Source: Synechococcus elongatus PCC 11801 (GTDB taxonomy: Bacteria > Cyanobacteriota > Cyanobacteriia > Synechococcales > Synechococcaceae). Taken from it: DNA of 64,000 nt. The translations under genes and the position numbers were made by a program. The stretch is taken from contig NZ_CP030139.2 of assembly GCF_003846445.2 (NCBI RefSeq), positions 2,025,223-2,089,222 on the forward strand, read 5' to 3'. Below, piece after piece: positions 5,786 through 53,066 of the stretch. The stretch's first letter is position 1; the number at the start of each line of letters is the position of its first letter. The notes beneath the pieces were generated by a model. It ran no database searches. It saw nothing but the letters and a program-made list of their open reading frames with translations, and was not told the DNA's origin.

Positions 5786-6700
5786 TTATCTCAGGGAGAG
5801 GAGAGCAGCTTGGAGGCGGTAGAGATGATCGGTACTCGCGGTCAACGGCAAGGGGCGATCGCCCAGCAACAGTTGATTGCCGGCGATCGCGAAATCATCC
5901 GCTGACCAATTGCGTTCATTCAGTTGTGTCAGGAGCGCGGCGCGATTCACACTGGCAGGCAGTGTCAGCACTTCCGCAACGCCGTAGTAGAGGCGATCGC
6001 CTTGAATTTCCCAGCGGGGTAGCGGGTAATTCGTGGTTGGTGTTGAAATCGCTTGCCCCACAGAACGGGCAGGGATCATCAGGGTTTGTAGTTCTGCGAC
6101 CGACTGTTGTTCGCTGATGTGGAGCGCTGCTGTATTGTGCAGGCCAAAGGTCCCGCCCAGTTGCGCCCCCATCTCGGCTTGGATACTGATAAAGCCCAGC
6201 ACGAGTAGAGACACCGCCACGTAGCGCAGACTGACTTGTGCCCGTTGGCGCGATCGCCAGCGATAGCGTTCCAGCCCGCGCCAGACAGTCAGCAACACAA
6301 TCATGAACAGCGAAAAAACGCCGCCCACTCCGTGCAGGTACATGGTTTCCAGCGCCGGTAAACCCCAAGGACTGACGGCTCCTGCTGGTGGTTCAGCTAG
6401 CAGCATCTCGAAAAAACCAAAGGCTACCGTGACGAAGGTGATCAGGGCAGCGGCCAACAAATTCCACCAGCCCAAGTCGTAGTAAGCCGAGCGATCGGGA
6501 TTGATCTTCAGCCCGTCATAGATGGGTCGTAGCAGACCATGACTGGTGGCGATCACATCAAAAATCAGCGCGATCGAGAACAGGCCGATGGTGAAGTGCA
6601 CTAAGTTGGGGTGCACTGGCAGCGTGTAGGGCAGACCATTCAGCCCCAAATCCAGCCCGCTACTCCAGTTGGGATTGGTTGCAAATAGGGACCAGATCAT
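5786..6700 (-). CDS. DUF2231 membrane protein, long form
   Basis: The 304-residue protein has a DUF2231-type membrane domain: an LPVHPNLVHFTIGLFSIALIFD helix (quoted in part) followed by further hydrophobic helices up to about residue 185. A soluble C-terminal domain of about 110 residues without recognisable motifs follows. LHNTAALHISEQQS lies between the two. DUF2231 proteins are often encoded beside c-type cytochromes and oxidases; their role is not established. Its start overlaps the stop of the next DUF2231 gene by one base, so translation is coupled. Confidence 0.8.
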   Translation of the reverse strand: MIWSLFATNPNWSSGLDLGLNGLPYTLPVHPNLVHFTIGLFSIALIFDVIATSHGLLRPIYDGLKINPDRSAYYDLGWWNLLAAALITFVTVAFGFFEMLLAEPPAGAVSPWGLPALETMYLHGVGGVFSLFMIVLLTVWRGLERYRWRSRQRAQVSLRYVAVSLLVLGFISIQAEMGAQLGGTFGLHNTAALHISEQQSVAELQTLMIPARSVGQAISTPTTNYPLPRWEIQGDRLYYGVAEVLTLPASVNRAALLTQLNERNWSADDFAIAGNQLLLGDRPLPLTASTDHLYRLQAALLSLR

Positions 6701-7233
6701 CAGCGCACCTCCCCAGTCAACTCAGGATTGACCGCAGTACTGAGTAGTCCAGCTCGGCCAGCGGTGGACACCGGCTCCACATGCAGCCCGTAGACCCAAT
6801 ACATCGTGGTACCCAGCAGGAATTGGTAGCAGACCAGCACGACCACGATCGCCTTAAACGCCAGCACACCTTTAGAAATGCGCGTGCGATCGCGCGATCG
6901 CTCAATGCCCTGCCAGAGTGCAAGATTCGGTAGCAAGAGCAGCAGCAACCAACCCACAGCAAGATGGCGATCGATTACCGGCTGAGCGGCTTGCGACGGC
7001 TGGGTGAGACCGATTTCAAACTGGCCGAAGAGGATGGCAAAGAAGATCGCGATCGCGGCTACCACCAGATTCCACCAGCCCGCATTCAGCAAGCTTTGGC
7101 GTTTGCTGATCAACCCGATCACCTCGAACAGGAACGAGATGATCACCATCGCAATCACGAAGTGCACCACGATCGCATGCAGCGGATCGGGGTAGGGCAA
7201 ATTCGCCCGATTCAACGGAAAGTCCAAAATCAA
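6700..7233 (-). CDS. DUF2231 membrane protein, short form
   Basis: The 177-residue protein has four predicted membrane helices with the DUF2231 pattern, including PLHAIVVHFVIAMVII and FAILFGQFEIGLTQP. The paired histidines in the first and later helices (HAIVVHF, DRHLAVGW) could bind heme or metal, but this is not shown. It is a shorter paralogue of the neighbouring 304-residue protein without the soluble tail. It starts one base after the stop of the cytochrome subunit gene, placing it in the oxidase operon. Confidence 0.8.
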   Translation of the reverse strand: MILDFPLNRANLPYPDPLHAIVVHFVIAMVIISFLFEVIGLISKRQSLLNAGWWNLVVAAIAIFFAILFGQFEIGLTQPSQAAQPVIDRHLAVGWLLLLLLPNLALWQGIERSRDRTRISKGVLAFKAIVVVLVCYQFLLGTTMYWVYGLHVEPVSTAGRAGLLSTAVNPELTGEVR

Positions 7234-7986
7234 TTACTCTCCAGCACGAGGGTCAGTCGGATTTTCAGCTTGCTGGCTGAGTTGCAGCGCTGGCGCTTCC
7301 ATATCGCGGAATTGACCGCTGCGCCAAGCCAAGAAGAAGGGCAAAACCACCGCCAGCCCAAACCAGACCAGCATCAGCACATTCACGGTGGTGACTTGCC
7401 GCGCTTCGGTCAGTCCATCGATCTGATCGATCGTTTCCTGCGTCAGGTTGGGGACATCCCGCAGGTATTCAAAGGTCCAGCGCTCAATCGGTCCGTCGTA
7501 GGTTTCCTTCCACAACCCGAGTGTCTGGAGATAAACGACGAGATCAGCGCGATCGCGATCGCTGAGGAAATCAAAGCTCGGCATCGTCGCATTGGCGAAT
7601 TGCAAGCGCGGATTCCGCAGCAGCACCGACAACTGGGCAGCACCTTCAGCTCCCAGATACTTGCGCCCAATGTTGGTGAGGTCGGGACCTTGACGTTCTG
7701 TCCCCATCAGGTGGGGCGCATCGTAGACATAGTCATTGGGCAGCGAGGGGCGCGTGCCATGTAGATAAGGTGCGTCGATCGTCAGCGGTCGAACTTGCTG
7801 GGTGTGGCAATAGAGGCACCCATTTTCGATGTAGACCTGACGGCCGCGCAGCGCCACTTCGCTGTAGGGCTGTAGCCCCGGGGACGGAACGGTATCACCA
7901 GCAATCCGGATCGATAGCTCGCTGATGATGAACACGCCCAGGCAGAGGATGAGCAACCCCGAGAGCAGAAAGGAGAGGCGTCTCAT
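7234..7986 (-). CDS. cbb3-type oxidase subunit II (CcoO-like monoheme cytochrome c)
   Basis: The 250-residue protein starts with one membrane helix, then has a CLYCH heme-c site at about residues 57-61 followed by TQQVRP, which is characteristic of CcoO. A probable axial methionine sits in ATMPSF near residue 127. A second hydrophobic helix lies near residue 205 (VLMLVWFGLAVVLPFFLAW), which is not in the minimal CcoO plan. The start overlaps the stop of the catalytic subunit gene by four bases. It would carry electrons into the subunit I binuclear centre. Confidence 0.88.
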   Translation of the reverse strand: MRRLSFLLSGLLILCLGVFIISELSIRIAGDTVPSPGLQPYSEVALRGRQVYIENGCLYCHTQQVRPLTIDAPYLHGTRPSLPNDYVYDAPHLMGTERQGPDLTNIGRKYLGAEGAAQLSVLLRNPRLQFANATMPSFDFLSDRDRADLVVYLQTLGLWKETYDGPIERWTFEYLRDVPNLTQETIDQIDGLTEARQVTTVNVLMLVWFGLAVVLPFFLAWRSGQFRDMEAPALQLSQQAENPTDPRAGE

Positions 7987-9434
7987 GCGTCTTCTCCCGG
8001 AACCAGCCAGACAGGTGATTCGATCGCAGCCACAGGTTCCAGTGCCGGCGATCGCCAGGCATAAATCAGGTTCCAGACCATGGCGAGCTGCCCGCCGATT
8101 AGGAACAAACCGCTATACATCCGCAGGTAGTAGTAGGGGTAGCGCAGCGCAACGGTTTCGCTAAAAGGCACTTGCTGGAACCAACCAACACCCTCAAAAA
8201 AAGCGGCTCCGTAGATCGGCAAGATGTAGAGGGCGCAGCCAATCACAAACATCCACCAGTGCAGTTTTTGCAGGACCGGGATCAAAGGACGTCGTAGACC
8301 GCGCTCCACCATTAGATAGAGCAAGGCGTTCAGGGCTGGCGTTGTAAAACCCAAAAAGGCAAGGTGGACGTGGGCGATCGTGTTGTCAGAGAAGTGCTGA
8401 ATGATGGTGAGTTCATGCCAGGCCAGCATGGCTCCCGAAGCCGAAGCCCAAAAGTAGACAAAAGCCGCCAGCACAGCGAAGCGCACCGCAATGCTTTCCC
8501 AAATGGCGCGCCACTGCCCCCAAATCGTTCCCCAGAGCGAAACTGTCGACAGGACGAAGGGCAGGGTCATACCAAAGGCCGCGAAGTAGCCCATCATCGT
8601 GATGAAGCGCGGCACCGGCCCATAGAGCAAGTGGTGGCCGCCATTCCAGATGTAGAAACCGGCAAAAGTCCAGAAACTCAGCGTGGCGACGCCGTGGGCA
8701 AACAGTTGGCGATTCAGCAGCCGCGGCACCACGTAATAGGCGATCGCCAGTCCTGCTCCAGTCATCACTGAACCAACGGCATTGTGGCCGTAGTACCAGT
8801 TGATCACCGCACCTTCCGCGCCTGCATTCCGACTCAGGTTGGCGGGAATGTAGATGAAGTCAAAGGCGATCGCGAACAGGAAAAAGTACCAGACGCTGAC
8901 AAACAATCCACTGACTCGCCGTTCAAACACGGTCAAGGCCAGACAAAGCGCCGTAAGGTTGACCGTAATCACCACCGCGAGGTTGATGCCACGCACCCAT
9001 TCCTCGTATTCGGCACCCTTTGTCCAACCCAAGCTGACGCTAACTAGGCCCAGCAGCACAGCAATGTGATATGCCCAGCCGCTCAAGGAAGCCAGTTCTC
9101 CCAAGATCAGCGATCGCTGACAGACACGAGGCAGGATGTAGAGCGCTGCACCAATTTCACCGCCGACAATCCAGCCAAACAGAATCGTGTTGACGTGTTC
9201 GGGACGGACGCGCCCAAAGCCAAGCGGTGCAGTTCCACCCAAGAAGTCGGGATAGGTCAGCTTAATGGCGGCGATCATGCCGAGGCACATGCCCAGAATC
9301 ATCCAGACCAGCGCACCTCCCAGCCAGACCCAAGCCGCATGATCGGGCTGAGATTCACTCAGCGTTGAACTGCCCGCCAGTCGTGCCAGCCAGGGGGGCA
9401 GGCGACGAAACCCCGTTGGGCTCGCGATAGTCAT
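7983..9434 (-). CDS. cbb3-type heme-copper oxidase subunit I (CcoN-like)
   Basis: The 483-residue protein has about twelve membrane helices. Ligand motifs of the C-family oxidases are present: RPEHVN (low-spin heme), YYGHNAVGS (copper-B histidine), GGHHLLYGP (copper-B pair) and AHVHLAFLG (heme ligands). It reduces O2 to water, probably in the cytoplasmic or thylakoid membrane. No CcoP or CcoQ gene is adjacent; instead two DUF2231 genes and an NDH-2 follow. Electron donor (quinol or cytochrome c) cannot be decided from sequence. Confidence 0.9.
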   Translation of the reverse strand: MTIASPTGFRRLPPWLARLAGSSTLSESQPDHAAWVWLGGALVWMILGMCLGMIAAIKLTYPDFLGGTAPLGFGRVRPEHVNTILFGWIVGGEIGAALYILPRVCQRSLILGELASLSGWAYHIAVLLGLVSVSLGWTKGAEYEEWVRGINLAVVITVNLTALCLALTVFERRVSGLFVSVWYFFLFAIAFDFIYIPANLSRNAGAEGAVINWYYGHNAVGSVMTGAGLAIAYYVVPRLLNRQLFAHGVATLSFWTFAGFYIWNGGHHLLYGPVPRFITMMGYFAAFGMTLPFVLSTVSLWGTIWGQWRAIWESIAVRFAVLAAFVYFWASASGAMLAWHELTIIQHFSDNTIAHVHLAFLGFTTPALNALLYLMVERGLRRPLIPVLQKLHWWMFVIGCALYILPIYGAAFFEGVGWFQQVPFSETVALRYPYYYLRMYSGLFLIGGQLAMVWNLIYAWRSPALEPVAAIESPVWLVPGEDA

Positions 9435-9566
9435 GCCAGGGGCTCAAAAAACTGCCCTCAGTATCCACAGGCAATTCTGATTCGGCAATTTCCTCTGAGG
9501 AAAGCTTAAGGTCTCCGCCCTGATCCAGACGGATCGCCAGCGATCGCTAGCCTTGCCAGCCATGCC

Positions 9567-10214
9567 TTACAGGCGATCGCGTTTAGCCTGCCAGAGCGAT
9601 CGCAACGGGATAAAGACGAGGGGTAGGCATAGACTGCTGATCACGGCTGAAGCCAAGCCGATATGGGCGAAGTCCCAGAGAATCCCGCGCAAAAAGTACA
9701 GCGGTTGAGCGACATAGCGGGGGTTAATGCCCACCTTTTGATCGGGCACTAGAGGGCGGTTGAGGTCGGCAATAATTCGCTGGGCAGTATTGCTGGCTTC
9801 GGGCGACCAGCTATTGGAATCGTGAAAGTGAATCAGGAATTGCAGCGCCGTCGTGGCTTCGATCAAAATAGCCAGGCCAAAACAGAGGCTGACTAACGCG
9901 ATCGGTTCCAAGCTAAACCAGCGGCGGCGGTAGCCAGCGGTGATCAGCCAACCCGCGATCGCTAGTCCCAGTGCATGGGTGGGATAGGGAGTACTGAGCG
10001 CATCGAGCAGCAATCCCAGCGTTACCCCCGCCACAATCCCCTGCCAGACGGCATGACCCGGTGCCCACGTAATCAACCAGAGCAGCACCCAGTGAGGCGC
10101 AATACCTGCCAGCTCCAAACCAGGGAGCCGAACTAGCATCAGCAAGGTTAGCCCCAGTGCCGATAAGCCAGTCGCCAGCCAAGGCGATCGCGCATCGTCA
10201 GCACTGAAGCTCAT
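9567..10214 (-). CDS. mreD: Rod shape-determining protein MreD
   Basis: The 215-residue, mostly hydrophobic protein fits MreD, a membrane component of the elongasome that guides peptidoglycan synthesis. Conserved features include LPGLELAGIAPHWVLLWLI and the LGLLLDALSTPYPTHALGLA segment (each part of a helix). The ATG at 10214 was chosen because it overlaps the mreC stop by four bases (ATGA). Gene order mreB-mreC-mreD is the usual one. An upstream in-frame extension inside mreC is unlikely to be used. Confidence 0.9.
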   Translation of the reverse strand: MSFSADDARSPWLATGLSALGLTLLMLVRLPGLELAGIAPHWVLLWLITWAPGHAVWQGIVAGVTLGLLLDALSTPYPTHALGLAIAGWLITAGYRRRWFSLEPIALVSLCFGLAILIEATTALQFLIHFHDSNSWSPEASNTAQRIIADLNRPLVPDQKVGINPRYVAQPLYFLRGILWDFAHIGLASAVISSLCLPLVFIPLRSLWQAKRDRL

Positions 10215-10960
10215 GGCGGGCTGGGTACCGATCGCTGAATCGTCAACCACTCTAGCTGCCCAATCGGAGCCGAGAGTTGCAAGACTGCCTCGGGGGCAGG
10301 TGTGGCTTGCAGATCAACTTTCTGAACTACCCCGACCGGCAAGCCAGCGGGGAAAAGTGTACTGGCGCTGGAGGTCACGGCGACGTCCCCCGGACGCACG
10401 ACGGGATCGCGATCGAAAAAGCGCACGGTGACTTGGTTGGTGCCTTGGCCGCGAATGTAGCCCTGACTGCGCGATCGGCTGATCATTACGCCGACGCCGC
10501 TGCTGGGATCGGTAATCAGCAGAACCCGGCTGGTGTTGGGGGAAACGCTAACGATGCGCCCCACTAGCCCTCCTGGACCACTCACGCTATCCCCCACTTG
10601 CACCCCAGCGCGGCTACCGCGTCCGAGAGTGACTTGCTGCCACCAGCTGTCGACACTGCGACCAATGATCGGGGCGAGAACGGTTCCCGGGGGCTGTTTG
10701 GGTTGCAGGGCGAGTTGTTGACGCAGAACTCGATTCTCGGCTTCGGCTTCTAGGAGTGCCTGTTCTAGACCCGACACCGTTGCCGACTGCACCCATTCCT
10801 GCTGCGTTGGCCCTGGATAAAAGGGGCGAGTGATCAAGGCATAGACCTCTGCCAACAGGGCACCTTGGGTTTGCCGCAAAATCCAAGCGACCCCAATCAG
10901 TCCCCCTGCGATCGCCACGCGGATCCCAAAGCGATTGAACCAACGCAGCACATCCGTCAT
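10211..10960 (-). CDS. mreC: Rod shape-determining protein MreC
   Basis: The 249-residue protein has a short cytoplasmic N-terminus, one membrane helix (about residues 12-30) and a periplasmic part. A coiled-coil segment (VSGLEQALLEAEAENRVLRQ, residues 63-82) is followed by the beta-rich MreC core with GRGSRAGVQVGDSV and GPGGLVGRI. It links MreB filaments to the wall-synthesis enzymes. It follows mreB by 24 bases and overlaps mreD, so the three form one operon. Confidence 0.92.
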   Translation of the reverse strand: MTDVLRWFNRFGIRVAIAGGLIGVAWILRQTQGALLAEVYALITRPFYPGPTQQEWVQSATVSGLEQALLEAEAENRVLRQQLALQPKQPPGTVLAPIIGRSVDSWWQQVTLGRGSRAGVQVGDSVSGPGGLVGRIVSVSPNTSRVLLITDPSSGVGVMISRSRSQGYIRGQGTNQVTVRFFDRDPVVRPGDVAVTSSASTLFPAGLPVGVVQKVDLQATPAPEAVLQLSAPIGQLEWLTIQRSVPSPP

Positions 10961-10984
10961 CGTGTTCTGCCGTCTCGTACCGCG

Positions 10985-12022
10985 CTAGGCACGGGAGCTA
11001 GCACTAAACACCCGCTCCAGACTCTTGAAGTTCTCGAGCACACGTCCCGTTCCCAAGACCACACAGCTGAGTGGGTCTGGTGCAATGTGGGTGATGATGC
11101 CCGTCTCATGGCTGATCAGCTCATCCAAGCCGCGCACCAAAGCGCCGCCGCCGGCAAGCACAATCCCGCGATCGACGATGTCTGCTGCCAATTCTGGCGG
11201 GGTTTTTTCGAGGGTACGTTTGACGGCTTCCACAATTACATTCAGCGGCTCCGCCATACTTTCGCGCACTTCCGCTGCTTTGATCGTGACGGTACGGGGC
11301 AGACCCGAGAGCAGGTGCAGACCCCGGACTTCCATGGTCGTCTCGTCAAATTCGTTGTCGGGGAACGCCGACCCGACCATAATTTTGATTTCCTCGGAGG
11401 TTCGCTCACCAATCACGAGGTTGTGGACTTTCTTGAGATACTGCGCGATCGCCTCACTCAGTTCATCGCCTGCGACTCGCACTGAATCGCTGAGGACAAT
11501 GCCCTGCAAGCTCATCACGGCGACTTCGGTAGTGCCACCGCCAATATCGACAATCATCGTCCCGGTCGGTTCTGCCACTGGCAGTCCTGCCCCGATCGCG
11601 GCTGCAACCGGCTCATCAATGAGATAGACTTCGCGGGCGCCTGCTTGGGTTGCAGCTTCCATCACTGCCCGTCGTTCCACCCCCGTGACGCCACTGGGAA
11701 TGCCAATCACGACGCGGGCAACCCCCGATCGCCCTTCCTGCACCCGCCGGATGAAATGCTTGAGCATCAGCTCAGCGGCATCAAAGTCAGCGATGACACC
11801 ATCCCGCAGGGGGCGCAGGGCTGCGACACTGCCGGGCGTACGCCCCAACATCAACTTGGCCTCAGAGCCGACCGCTAGGGGTTTCTTGAGGTTTTGGTCG
11901 ATCGCGACCACTGAAGGCTCTTGCAGAACGATTCCTTTACCGGAGACATAGACCAGTGTGTTGGCCGTCCCTAGGTCAATACCCATGTCGCGGGAGAGGG
12001 AGAAGCGCCGAAGAATACTCAC
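10985..12022 (-). CDS. mreB: Actin-like cell-shape protein MreB
   Basis: The 345-residue product has the actin-fold nucleotide-binding motifs: MGIDLGTANTLVYV (phosphate 1), VIGIPSGVTGVERRAV, IVDIGGGTTEVAVMS (phosphate 2) and GIVLAGGGALVRG (adenosine site). MreB polymerises at the inner membrane and directs lateral wall growth. The start is placed at a GTG at 12022, preceded by an AAGGCGG ribosome site about nine bases upstream. The longer ATG-initiated frame to 12100 adds 26 residues with no similarity to other MreB N-termini. Confidence 0.95.
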   Translation of the reverse strand: MSILRRFSLSRDMGIDLGTANTLVYVSGKGIVLQEPSVVAIDQNLKKPLAVGSEAKLMLGRTPGSVAALRPLRDGVIADFDAAELMLKHFIRRVQEGRSGVARVVIGIPSGVTGVERRAVMEAATQAGAREVYLIDEPVAAAIGAGLPVAEPTGTMIVDIGGGTTEVAVMSLQGIVLSDSVRVAGDELSEAIAQYLKKVHNLVIGERTSEEIKIMVGSAFPDNEFDETTMEVRGLHLLSGLPRTVTIKAAEVRESMAEPLNVIVEAVKRTLEKTPPELAADIVDRGIVLAGGGALVRGLDELISHETGIITHIAPDPLSCVVLGTGRVLENFKSLERVFSASSRA

Positions 12023-12214
12023 TGATAAATCCGCCTTGATGACGTGGCTGCGGTAATTAAGCTGAGTAGCAAGCCAGAAACGCAGTGGAGTGGCCTGCAA
12101 CGCCAGAGGATTCTATCGCCTCCTGCTAACTCAGTCTAGGCAGCGATTGGCTCGGCGGGTTGGGCGACAACTGCCAGAATGAAACTGAGCAACGCACGGG
12201 AGTTTGACTGCACG

Positions 12215-12577
12215 ATGAGCTTAAATGTTGTCAACTTGGTGGGGCGCGTGGGCCGCGACCCTGAGGCTCGCTACTTCGAGTCCGGCTCAGTAGTCTGTAA
12301 GTTTTCGCTGGCGGTCAATCGCCGCACCCGGAACGATGAACCCGACTGGTTCAACGTGGAGTTTTGGGGGCGTGAGGCACAAGTTGCGATCGACTATGTC
12401 AAAAAAGGCAGCCTGATCGGGATCAGTGGCGCCCTCAAAATCGAAAGCTGGACCGATCGCGATGGCAAGCAGCGAACCACTCCTGTGGTGAGGGGCAATC
12501 GTCTCGAACTGCTCGGCTCGCGCCGCGATCAGGAAGGTGGGATGGCACCTCGAGATCCCGATAGCGATTTGTTCTAG
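12215..12577 (+). CDS. ssb: Single-stranded DNA-binding protein
   Basis: The 120-residue protein has the SSB OB-fold sequence: NVVNLVGRVGRDPEARYF, FSLAVNRR, WFNVEFWGREAQ and the KKGSLIGISGALK strand. The acidic C-terminal tip (DPDSDLF) corresponds to the partner-binding tail. It protects single strands in replication, repair and recombination. The ATG at 12215 was preferred to one at 12179, because the protein then starts MSLNVVNLVG like other cyanobacterial SSBs. It is divergent from mreB with about 190 bases between. Confidence 0.92.
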   Translation: MSLNVVNLVGRVGRDPEARYFESGSVVCKFSLAVNRRTRNDEPDWFNVEFWGREAQVAIDYVKKGSLIGISGALKIESWTDRDGKQRTTPVVRGNRLELLGSRRDQEGGMAPRDPDSDLF

Positions 12578-47492: not shown

Positions 47493-49448
47493 CTAAGACA
47501 AATTAAAAAATCGTTTGAGCTTTCCAAAGAATGAAGAGTCTCTCGCTGGCTCTGTAATTCTAGGTTGCACAAGATTTTTGTTTGCTTGCGCTCGTGCTTG
47601 CGCCTGAGCTCGAACTTTGGCCAATTCAGCTAATTCAGCAAAACGTTTTTGTTCTTGCAGACAGCTTTCACTGCAATAGTGGCAGTTAGAACATGGACAA
47701 ATGAGCTTCTGACAAACAGGACAAGTATGGTGTTCTCCCAAAATTAGGGGACTAAATCCGCATTTACCTTTCCTGTCAACTTTTCCGCCGCAATACGCAA
47801 GTAACGTGGTCCAAGGATCATTACTACTTTTTCTCGCCTGCAATAAACCATTACCAGAGAAGTGAAAGCTGGTGAAACTGCTTAGCCTGATTGAGTCTTT
47901 ATGCTCCCACAGAGTAGTTAAGGTTTCACATAAATCTTTGACTGTATTTAGAGGATCATAAATCCATAATGGATGAGTAGAATCCTTAGATGGATAAATT
48001 ATTTTTGAATAATCTCTAGGTGAAAAATTAGTCGTATTAGATCTTGCCATCAATAAAAAGTGCTTCAGTATTGATAAGTAAAGATATGGCAAAGATATTC
48101 TAGGGTTTGGGCTTGAATATAATATTTCAACAAAGCTTTCAAGCCAAATAGGCTTTGCATCTTCCCAGCTTTTAGGGATAGGATTTTTGGAAGCAATGCA
48201 TACTGCAAAATAATTTAAATACAATGCCTTAGTTAATTCACGGTAGGAGAATGTATCAAATCTGAAATTCTTTCTAATCTCGCATATTGCCTCTAACTGA
48301 TTTTTATAAAATTTGTCATTATAGTCAAACAGCCAAGGTGGTAAATATTCCTCACAATCCTGATAACGATTAAAAGTTAGATAAAAATAGCTGTCTTCAA
48401 AAATATCTTTGAGATGCTTGATTAATGACTTTTGCGTTTCTCCGAGAATGATGGGATTTTTTACGTAAAATGATGTTTGTCCATCATTGATACTTTGCAA
48501 TGTCAGATAAGGTGACAAAACACCTACTATAGTGACATCACTACCATTATTATTCTTAAATTTCTTGACATAGAATTCTGAGTAAGTGCTAGAATTTACT
48601 GACCGTCTTGCATTTTTTACATCAATCAATATTGTGTTGTCTAGGCGTATATCAGCAATCATCCATGCAGTACTTTGATTAGTAATCTGATGGATTGCAA
48701 GATCCTCAACGGAGTAACCTTGGCCCTTATAAAATCTACTCACTAACTTCTCAGCGCCTCTAGCTGAGATCATTTGTGCTTTCCAGTAGTCATTTGAACT
48801 TCTATCACCGCACCATAATTCAGTTAACTCCTCATCGAGTTCACTGAGAGAATATAGATCCTGCCAATGAATAGACAGATGCTGATCAGGATAAATAGAC
48901 TTGTTTAGCTTTAACAAAGCAGAAGCTCTAGACCGTATTGAGTCCTTTCCCTGAATTGTGTTTATAACTTTAGCTTGCTTTTCTTTTTCAAGATTTTGGT
49001 ATTCTGATGTTTTTGAAGATTGACTCGAGTATTTGGCAATTTCTAGAATAAAACTCTGATTAAAAGTTTTCCCTAAAAGGGGTGTTATTTCGTAAACTCT
49101 TTGTAAGTCTAGACTCTTGATATGATGAGCTAAGATTTTAGCAGCTTCTGTATTTCCTTTTTTCTTGGCGTAGATAGAAACTAACTGCAAAACTTGTGCT
49201 ATTTCATGGCTTTTAAGATCTGAAAAATTCAAAGCTAATTTTGTTGTGAGGTGCACTAATGAATAGATAGGCAAATCCAAGGTGGATTTTATATTTATTG
49301 TTTTCATGTCCACTGCTAATTGATAACCATATTCAAATTTTTCTACTATTAATTGGTAATCATATTTAAATTTCTCGTCATTGCTTGTGTCTTTTTTGAT
49401 GATAATACCTACTGCAAAAGCATACTTATTTTCTTTGATATTTGCCAT
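47493..49448 (-). CDS. AT-rich PD-(D/E)XK-like protein with zinc cluster
   Basis: I do not recognise this 651-residue protein. Helical N-terminal regions are followed by RGAEKLVSRFYKGQGYSVED (about 230-249) and AWMIADIRLDNTILIDVKNA; E233, D266, D276 and K278 fit a PD-(D/E)XK nuclease core. Near residues 553-596 there are about ten cysteines (CPVCQKLICPCSNCHYCSESC and two before it), a probable zinc site, then a basic coiled tail. DNA is AT-rich without HIP1 sites, unlike its neighbours. The ATG at 49448 avoids overlap with the HNH gene. Confidence 0.65.
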   Translation of the reverse strand: MANIKENKYAFAVGIIIKKDTSNDEKFKYDYQLIVEKFEYGYQLAVDMKTINIKSTLDLPIYSLVHLTTKLALNFSDLKSHEIAQVLQLVSIYAKKKGNTEAAKILAHHIKSLDLQRVYEITPLLGKTFNQSFILEIAKYSSQSSKTSEYQNLEKEKQAKVINTIQGKDSIRSRASALLKLNKSIYPDQHLSIHWQDLYSLSELDEELTELWCGDRSSNDYWKAQMISARGAEKLVSRFYKGQGYSVEDLAIHQITNQSTAWMIADIRLDNTILIDVKNARRSVNSSTYSEFYVKKFKNNNGSDVTIVGVLSPYLTLQSINDGQTSFYVKNPIILGETQKSLIKHLKDIFEDSYFYLTFNRYQDCEEYLPPWLFDYNDKFYKNQLEAICEIRKNFRFDTFSYRELTKALYLNYFAVCIASKNPIPKSWEDAKPIWLESFVEILYSSPNPRISLPYLYLSILKHFLLMARSNTTNFSPRDYSKIIYPSKDSTHPLWIYDPLNTVKDLCETLTTLWEHKDSIRLSSFTSFHFSGNGLLQARKSSNDPWTTLLAYCGGKVDRKGKCGFSPLILGEHHTCPVCQKLICPCSNCHYCSESCLQEQKRFAELAELAKVRAQAQARAQANKNLVQPRITEPARDSSFFGKLKRFFNLS

Positions 49449-49600
49449 TTTGAATAAGTCGATTTTTGAGTATTTTGTGGTTGAAATTGAATTTTTATTT
49501 GGCGGCACTCCAATAGTAACAATAATTACTGTTAAGCAAAATATTTTTACTAAGTTTTTAGATTGAGGTTGATTTTTTTGTTTGATAATGTACTTCAAGC

Positions 49601-49897
49601 CTAACGCTGGCGATGATTGGGGGGATCGTAGAAATCGGGTGGATGGCGTCGCACCCACTTGAGAAAACGCTGCACTTCCGGATGCGATCGCAGGCGATCG
49701 GGGGTGTTGTAGAACAGCGCTAGCTCCTGTTCACTGAACAGCGAATGAATTTTGCGATGGCAGATTTGATGGACATACAGCCATTCCTTACCGCCATGAC
49801 TGCGGGGTAAAAAGTGATGGCGATCGACAAAGCGATCCTTCCATAGGGGGCGATCGCAGAGGGGGCAAGGACCGAGGTCTTGGGGTGCTGCGGGCAT
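49601..49897 (-). CDS. Small HNH endonuclease
   Basis: The 98-residue protein has CPLCDRPL, then DRHHFLPRSHGGKEW and ICHRKIHSLF, which form an HNH metal site with a zinc-binding cysteine pair. Small stand-alone HNH proteins of this size are common in cyanobacteria, and their role is unclear. GC content and HIP1 sites match the core genome. It follows the TIGR03943 gene after 14 bases, so it may belong to that operon. Confidence 0.88.
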   Translation of the reverse strand: MPAAPQDLGPCPLCDRPLWKDRFVDRHHFLPRSHGGKEWLYVHQICHRKIHSLFSEQELALFYNTPDRLRSHPEVQRFLKWVRRHPPDFYDPPNHRQR

Positions 49898-51682: not shown

Positions 51683-51752
51683 TGCTAGGAGGAGCAGATT
51701 GCCGCTATTCTATCGGCTCACCCTGCTTTGCTACGATTTGGGGTGTTTGCTT

Positions 51753-51826
51753 GGGGCTGTAGCTCAGCTGGATAGAGCAAGCGCCTCCTAAGCGCTAGGC
51801 CGCGCGTTCAAATCGCGCCAGTCCCG
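51753..51826 (+). tRNA. tRNA-Arg (anticodon CCU)
   Basis: The 74-base sequence folds as a cloverleaf: acceptor GGGGCTG/CAGTCCC with one G-U pair, D stem GCTC/GAGC, anticodon stem AGCGC/GCGCT with loop CTCCTAA, T stem GCGCG/CGCGC with loop TTCAAAT, and discriminator G. The anticodon is CCU, reading AGG. No CCA is encoded. It ends 31 bases before the recombinase-like gene. Confidence 0.95.
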
Positions 51827-51857
51827 TTTCACCACTCAGCGACCTGTGCTCCCCTAC

Positions 51858-53066
51858 TTAGACTGGTGCGGTCAAGAAAGCTGAAAGATCCTCTGTATCG
51901 GTGGCAGTCCAGCGGTGACTGGGGCGATCGCCGTTGAGATTACTGAGCGGATCGGAAGCGGCATCGTGAATCAGGACTTTATTGATAAAGGTCTGCTCGT
52001 CCATGACTTTATGGGTGGCTTCCCGCCAGCGTTGGAAGGCGATCTGGGCATACCAAATTCGCCCGTCGATCGGTGCCAAGCTGCCCAGTTGGAACCCTTG
52101 CCGAAGCACAGGCCGTAGACAGGGCAAATACTGCTGAATGCTGGATTCCATGCCGGGATAGGCTTGCTGCCTCAGTAAGTCCAAATGAATTCTGGGGCTG
52201 TACCAAGCGGCAAGTGCTGTCAGTTCTGCTAGGACTTTGACATGGGCTTGAGCAATGAGCTGCGGATTGCCCAACGGTCGGATTTTAAAGGTCTTGGCCT
52301 GTGGATCGTTGCCTTGGTGCATGCCATGAATCAGCAGACAGCCATCATCGCTGGGTTGGAACCGAGCATCGCGCAACACTTCGAGGAAAGGACGCCGTCC
52401 AGTCAGAATCACGATCGCGATCGCGGCATCATAGGCCAACTGAAGCCTCGGCACCATCGTCATCACGGGATTCAGTGCTTGCGGATCGGCACTGCTGGAA
52501 CTCGTGTAGTGCGGAATGCGCAAGGAGGCTGCCGTCAGTCGAGGTGATTGATGGGTCAGAAACTCTTGCAATGTAGAAATTGCTTGACCCAGCAGTAATT
52601 GACAAACAGAGGGGGGCAGGGGAATGCGTGCTTGTTGGTCTGCGAGCGAGCTAACGTCCTGCGTCAGTTGAGGATTCGTTCGTACAACATCTCGTGCAGT
52701 TCCCAGCGATTGCACATAGGTAGTTAGCCATGTACAGGGTTCATCCCCGATGGGAATGCGATCGACATTCTGATGGGGTGTCAGTTGCTCCCAATCACCA
52801 GAACGATTGAGTTCTAGGCTGCTGGGGCGCCACATCCAGCCGCGAGCTGCCAATTCATGCCGCACCTGATTGCGAAGGGTGCTTTGGTAGCGCTTTAACG
52901 TGGACTCGTCGGTCTTATTTTCAATCCAGCTTTTGACGATGCTTTCACAGTATTGACAAGCGCGTTTCTTCGCACTGACATCGCGATGGTTCCAATACTG
53001 CTCCCAGCCATCACAAATTGTGCTGACAATGGTCTCAAATTGTTCTTGGAGTGGCTGATCATCCAT
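51858..53066 (-). CDS. Recombinase/telomere-resolvase-like protein lacking a C-terminal tyrosine
   Basis: The 402-residue protein has AIAIVILTGRRPFLEVL near residue 222-238, then AKTFKIRPL, GRIWYAQIAFQRW and VLIHDAASD, an order and spacing like the R-K-R-H catalytic residues of tyrosine recombinases and protelomerases (residues R224, K258/K261, R336, H367). No tyrosine occurs after Y339, where the nucleophile would be expected. The N-terminal half is helical. It lies next to a tRNA gene and points toward it. Identification is tentative. The ATG at 53066 was preferred to a GTG at 53108. Confidence 0.5.
   Translation of the reverse strand: MDDQPLQEQFETIVSTICDGWEQYWNHRDVSAKKRACQYCESIVKSWIENKTDESTLKRYQSTLRNQVRHELAARGWMWRPSSLELNRSGDWEQLTPHQNVDRIPIGDEPCTWLTTYVQSLGTARDVVRTNPQLTQDVSSLADQQARIPLPPSVCQLLLGQAISTLQEFLTHQSPRLTAASLRIPHYTSSSSADPQALNPVMTMVPRLQLAYDAAIAIVILTGRRPFLEVLRDARFQPSDDGCLLIHGMHQGNDPQAKTFKIRPLGNPQLIAQAHVKVLAELTALAAWYSPRIHLDLLRQQAYPGMESSIQQYLPCLRPVLRQGFQLGSLAPIDGRIWYAQIAFQRWREATHKVMDEQTFINKVLIHDAASDPLSNLNGDRPSHRWTATDTEDLSAFLTAPV

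Follow-up and report, generated by a model that had tools for sequence, protein, structure and literature searches.

What kind of protein is encoded by the recombinase-like gene that lies beside a tRNA gene in the chromosome of Synechococcus elongatus PCC 11801, and what could such a protein be maintained for if it possesses no tyrosine nucleophile? We addressed this question by analysis of the gene and its context within a stretch of 64,000 nucleotides (hereafter, the window), and by comparison with the ortholog from a second species and with known telomere resolvases.

Gene structure and genomic context

The span originally delineated, 51753-53066, joins two genes, one for the resolvase-like protein and one for tRNA-Arg(CCU). 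The open reading frame at 51858-53066 of the minus strand is intact, its ATG start is backed by the ortholog, and the gene is present in a single copy in its own genome. The features discussed below are the following.

51858-53066, minus strand: gene for a tyrosine-less telomere-resolvase-like protein of 402 aa, stop codon included (open reading frame, PF16684 match, ortholog)
52437-53066, minus strand: N-terminal part, residues 1-210 (sequence comparisons)
51951-52436, minus strand: ResT/TelK-type catalytic domain, residues 211-372 (Pfam PF16684, hhalign, predicted fold match to TelA/TelK/ResT)
51861-51950, minus strand: C-terminal tail, residues 373-402, in which the nucleophilic tyrosine and the C-terminal extensions of the relatives are missing
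51752-51827, plus strand: tRNA-Arg(CCU), convergent neighbor; the search for a repeat of its 3' end speaks against an attachment site

The position of the gene beside tRNA-Arg(CCU), already recognized in the preliminary description, is accurate, with 30 bp separating the end of the tRNA from the 3' end of the resolvase-like gene. One flank of the locus encodes an ArsP-type permease and a DUF1980 protein, and the other a D-Ala-D-Ala dipeptidase, an FAD oxidoreductase and dxs; the gene order and the position of the tRNA are the same in the genome of the ortholog (G001). Allowing for as many as 2 mismatches, the genome contains a single copy of the tRNA 3' end, which argues that the tRNA is not an attachment site. 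Among the eight neighboring open reading frames, Pfam detected no Tn7-type transposition genes, and no PADLOC defense model matched at the locus. The synteny with the genome of the ortholog breaks at a GC-poor segment of the window, 47493-49897, that contains a 721-aa open reading frame and a 98-aa, by eye HNH-like, open reading frame, both with no Pfam matches.

Between positions 49001 and 56000 of the window, the only inverted repeat with arms of at least 10 is built of GCGATCGC and falls inside the range of the shuffles; thus, no telomere-like palindrome or inverted repeat beyond chance was found in this segment. The possibility that the locus represents a telomere fused at the chromosome terminus was rejected because the gene is located about 0.26 Mb (0.42 Mb for the ortholog) from dnaN, which we take as the marker of the origin, far from the opposite pole of the 2.7 Mb chromosome. 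The GC skew of the window shows no clear switch. The chromosome appears to be of the ordinary circular type, as is presumed for the genus.

Affinity with telomere resolvases

The sole Pfam match above the cut-off in the 402-aa protein is PF16684, the catalytic domain of the telomere resolvases ResT and TelK (residues 212-370, 30.2 bits against the curated cut-off of 27), and there is no other integrase-type Pfam match. The ortholog matches the same family at 33.0 bits, and so does the named S. elongatus control. Against a profile of the family built without the S. elongatus sequences, the protein scores 26.5 bits, compared with 5.7 bits for the best of the 1,001 scored shuffles (2,000 were made); of the 448 reading frames of at least 60 aa in the window, none but this one passed the profile, the next having an E-value of 2.7. 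Profile-profile comparison with hhalign aligns residues 212-371 to the family with 92% probability, and PHROG 5272, a family annotated as unknown function, aligns to the same stretch as PF16684 (E 1.5e-5). The NCBIfam search of the protein returned nothing, no profile of a tRNA-targeted integrase family was matched in the Pfam, NCBIfam or PHROGs results, and sequence searches of the PDB with the single protein and with the two-sequence profile yielded no match. The affinity is confined to the catalytic domain: when residues 1-205 were compared with the N-terminal parts of 96 members of the family, no homology was detectable (two-sequence search, E 0.06; hhalign probability 0.7%). This N-terminal part includes a CxxC motif (C37 and C40; residues 37-40, window 52947-52958) that is identical in both species and could bind a metal. 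Judging by these sequence comparisons, the protein belongs to the telomere-resolvase family by descent.

Structure prediction is consistent with this assignment. The full-length AlphaFold model was unusable (pLDDT 45). Residues 190-402 were therefore modeled separately, with viral protelomerases supplied as the alignment; the mean pLDDT of this model is a modest 61, and much of its core reaches 72-82. Foldseek retrieved ResT first and TelK next for this model (E 3e-4 and 5e-4), and VIA-align gave Z-scores of 7.9-8.2 for TelA, TelK and ResT; the next scores were 5.8, for an integrase, and 5.0, for XerH, on a scale where Z-scores below 8 can be background. Given that an alignment of resolvases was supplied to the predictor and that the Z-scores lie around this limit, the fold match is supportive rather than independent proof; the predicted catalytic domain resembles the resolvase-type fold best. 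In BFVD, the viral structure that matches the model best is Q4A292 (E 0.004), which contains a ResT/TelK domain and comes from Emiliania huxleyi virus 86. The early suggestion of a telomere-resolvase relative is thus borne out by the PF16684 match, the residue columns considered below and the predicted fold.

Active-site residues

The active site of TelA is described as consisting of Arg255, Lys286, Tyr363, Arg366, His394 and Tyr405, with Arg255 coordinating the scissile phosphate (PMC3558466). The R255A entry of TelA in the PDB alignment corresponds to the second arginine of the TGRR motif, and positions were mapped through TelN (R275, K300, K380, R383, H416 and Y425). The corresponding codons, all on the minus strand of the window, are as follows.

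52392-52394, minus strand: R225, equivalent to TelA Arg255 and TelN R275; kept
52314-52316, minus strand: Q251, at the position of the catalytic lysine (TelA Lys286, TelN K300); lost
52068-52070, minus strand: I333, at the position of TelA Tyr363, mostly His or Lys in the relatives; lost
52059-52061, minus strand: R336, equivalent to TelA Arg366 and TelN R383; kept
52050-52052, minus strand: Y339, the last tyrosine of the protein, at Arg+3, where most relatives also have Tyr; not the nucleophile
51966-51968, minus strand: H367, equivalent to TelA His394 and TelN H416; kept

Of the four recombinase-like residues (R, K, R and H) initially perceived in the sequence, three hold, as R225, R336 and H367 align with the catalytic arginines and histidine of telomere resolvases, but the lysine column is occupied by Q251 in both species. 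The lysine originally meant could be K258 or K261; both belong to the same predicted beta hairpin as Q251, and either could substitute for the lost lysine. The claim that no tyrosine follows residue 339 is correct for the protein and the ortholog alike: the nucleophilic tyrosine, which is located after the histidine in the relatives checked, is absent from both, and the two species have identical states (R-Q-I-R-H-none) at all these positions. To judge by the residues tested, the protein does not qualify as a functioning telomere resolvase.

These losses are atypical of the family. Among the other full cyanobacterial domains, both arginines are present in 58 of 58, the lysine in 57 and the tyrosine in 57; none of these four residues is missing from any of the 37 distinct viral or phage domains. 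The 58 distinct cyanobacterial domains come from the loci of the best matches, up to 30 for each search, and four plasmid records rather than from every match, and the count omits the degenerate second domain of L010 and one fragment cut by the end of a locus. The sole cyanobacterial domain without an aligned tyrosine, L015, has a tyrosine adjoining the column and so may be misaligned. The absence of the tyrosine is therefore unusual for the family and common to both species. In L010/L019 (genome G018), residues 402-530 of the open reading frame form a second, degenerate catalytic domain that follows an active one and has no aligned Tyr, His or Lys; it appears to be a second kind of dead resolvase domain.

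Phyletic distribution and selection

The gene is present in both available genomes of the order, and in the set of relatives 2 of 39 genomes match, both of the same genus. In a search of 386 genomes of the phylum with the two-sequence profile, the only confident match was to the genome of origin, G001 not being among the matches listed; two partial matches at E 0.006 (63 and 111 residues, one with two stop codons) were taken as chance, as were four phage records from tblastn (E 0.8, a short stretch). Scans of viral sequences and genome collections revealed no close relatives, and tblastn against plasmids gave no match. Among the genomes searched, the tyrosine-less relative thus seems restricted to one small order. 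The initial alternatives of an unrelated fold or an unrelated family conserved in all cyanobacteria are not supported, as fold similarity was found and the gene does not represent a family of that kind. The PF16684 domain family as a whole is represented in 94 of 378 genomes of the class, with members on plasmids too; three of the four plasmid records examined are recorded as linear, and the fourth as circular, with about 1 kb between the end of the gene and that of the sequence. In the phylogenetic tree, the S. elongatus protein forms a long branch (2.76 changes per site) whose nearest relatives are unplaced; it joins L015 with 83/90 support, a join of long branches.

The protein and its ortholog are 72.9% identical over a gapless alignment, and the two genes occupy the same place next to the same tRNA. 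The estimates of dN and dS are 0.168 and 1.42 (NG86) or 0.179 and 1.11 (YN00), with a dN/dS of about 0.12-0.16 that is approximate because dS is near saturation. The conservation evidence comes from two species; the integrity of the reading frame across this near-saturating synonymous divergence indicates that the gene is maintained by selection. The proteins encoded by the five flanking genes compared are 86-98% identical versus 73% here, so the protein evolves faster than its neighbors and the constraint is moderate. The segment around the first arginine (residues 215-240) is identical at 24 of 26 positions, and that around the second arginine (residues 329-356) at 25 of 28, against 73% overall, with position-shuffle frequencies of 0.012 and 0.027, respectively. 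Two of the three longest identical runs surround the catalytic arginines; the longest, 22 residues at positions 108-129, is in the N-terminal half. Seven tyrosines, at positions 24, 39, 60, 117, 212, 313 and 339, are common to both species.

Possible functions

The interpretation that we favor, with a probability of roughly 0.7, is that the protein is a catalytically dead, domesticated descendant of a telomere resolvase that is kept by selection as a non-cutting DNA-binding factor. The gene would have been inherited with the chromosome in a small cyanobacterial order and retained by selection. The cleavage chemistry of this family is not expected to proceed without the nucleophile and the lysine. 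From this chemistry we infer that, devoid of the tyrosine nucleophile, of the lysine that acts as general acid and of an equivalent of TelA Tyr363, the protein would neither cut nor rejoin DNA. Conservation of the arginines and the histidine of the pocket suggests DNA binding at this site: the retained residues would form the pocket that holds the scissile phosphate in TelA, and double-stranded DNA would still be clasped there, with the N-terminal half adding specificity or partners. Of the notion, raised at the outset, of a domesticated or inactive recombinase, inactivity is suggested by the missing residues, and the term domesticated is used because the gene persists under selection.

A bolder proposal, which we regard as tentative and somewhat against the odds, is that the domesticated resolvase acts on a circular chromosome as a DNA-gripping or annealing factor, a natural counterpart of the laboratory mutant TelA Y405F; such a factor could serve, for instance, natural transformation, repair or the handling of the chromosome. 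The TelA Y405F mutant is reported to lose telomere resolution while annealing as the wild type, and the N-terminal domain of TelA to anneal by itself (PMC7861564); TnsF is described as an inactivated tyrosine recombinase that serves as a DNA target selector (PMC10293859). These precedents render a non-cutting role plausible. The apparent lack of kinship between the N-terminal part and those of resolvases favors gripping of double-stranded DNA over annealing.

Accordingly, it seems unlikely, albeit worth considering, that the protein is a separation-of-function resolvase that lost resolution and kept a tyrosine-independent, N-terminal annealing of single-stranded DNA for repair, recombination or natural transformation. 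Such a role would accord with the behavior of TelA Y405F, with the sufficiency of the TelA N-terminal domain and with the placement of the longest identical run in the N-terminal half, but residues 1-205 have no detectable homology to the corresponding parts of the 96 family members, two of the three longest identical runs coincide with the catalytic arginines, and the catalytic domain of TelA is not the annealer. The chances are poor that the gene has no function and is decaying after the loss of a linear replicon to which it belonged. In favor are the loss of half the active-site positions, the long branch and an evolution faster than in the neighbors; on the other side, the gene is intact in both species across a dS of about 1.4 with a low dN/dS, the two species share the same losses, and the segments with the arginines rank among the best conserved. 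That the protein is still an active strand transferase, using another residue or a tyrosine from another subunit, is very improbable even though R225, R336 and H367 are kept, seven tyrosines are shared and Flp donates its tyrosine in trans, because the positions of the lysine and of TelA Tyr363 are lost too, the genome encodes no second PF16684 protein as a donor, and the tyrosine follows the histidine in the relatives checked. Finally, the idea that a mobile element inserted at tRNA-Arg(CCU) and left a defunct integrase gene, prompted by the proximity of the gene end to the tRNA in both species, is largely refuted by the unduplicated tRNA 3' end, by PF16684 being the only integrase-type match and by the syntenic host genes shared on both sides.

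Among the papers listed in the literature searches, none deals with this gene or describes a resolvase that has no tyrosine, and a search by presumed locus tags of the PCC 7942 counterpart found none either. Telomere resolvases have a second activity, the cellular role of which is presented as an open question (PMC7861564). A maintained family member that presumably cannot resolve telomeres offers a clean way to ask what else the family does. The genus includes a genetically tractable laboratory cyanobacterium. Persistence of the gene further suggests that the family is able to survive when the linear replicon with which it presumably came is gone.

Comparison with known systems

The S. elongatus protein shares with TelA of Agrobacterium, TelK and TelN of the phages phiKO2 and N15, and ResT of Borrelia the catalytic-domain profile, the predicted fold, and the two arginines and histidine. 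It differs from these enzymes in having no nucleophilic tyrosine, Gln in place of the lysine, and Ile at the position of TelA Tyr363; moreover, there is no palindrome at the locus, and neither the N-terminal nor the C-terminal domains of resolvases are recognizable.

Resolvase genes of other cyanobacteria are found in a different setting. In four genomes chosen for mirror-paired resolvase genes, the two genes of each pair lie on either side of the center of a palindrome that is perfect over arms ranging from 3.1 to at least 9.5 kb. Read-through of a hairpin telomere during assembly would be expected to produce this arrangement; nothing similar exists at the S. elongatus locus. In L024, at 6111-12269 (about 2110111-2116269 of G018:C1), two head-to-head copies of an open reading frame for a 902-aa telomere resolvase, with the catalytic residues all present, are carried by an inverted repeat that is perfect over arms of 3,079 bp around a center of 1 nt, within a single contig of 4,681,111 bp. 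The arrangement has the appearance of a linear chromosome whose two hairpin telomeres, identical in sequence, were fused when the assembly was wrongly closed into a circle. The mirror-paired genes of L130 (G461:C1), L132 (G584:C72) and L133 (G443:C54) lie in perfect palindromes whose arms measure, in the stretches covered, at least 9,478 bp (L130), 4,196 bp (L132) and at least 7,259 bp (L133); these palindromes probably reflect read-through of hairpin telomeres. The single contig of L131 (G025:C1), 5,458,034 bp in length, has a resolvase gene about 8 kb short of its end, and the stretch covered contains no inverted repeats; this contig is possibly another linear chromosome.

Within the phylum, a close comparison is with the plasmid-encoded proteins annotated as protelomerase family proteins (for example, on NC_020051, NZ_AP014641 and NZ_CP046707, all recorded as linear), which contain the same catalytic domain. 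These proteins have the full catalytic set, whereas the S. elongatus protein is chromosomal, shorter and highly divergent. By mode of action, an analogy may be drawn with TnsF of Tn6022, in which a recombinase fold without the tyrosine is reported to be kept for DNA recognition (PMC10293859). TnsF is Xer-like and resides in a Tn7-type transposon; the S. elongatus protein, in contrast, has a resolvase-type domain and is encoded among host genes with no transposition genes in the eight neighboring open reading frames.
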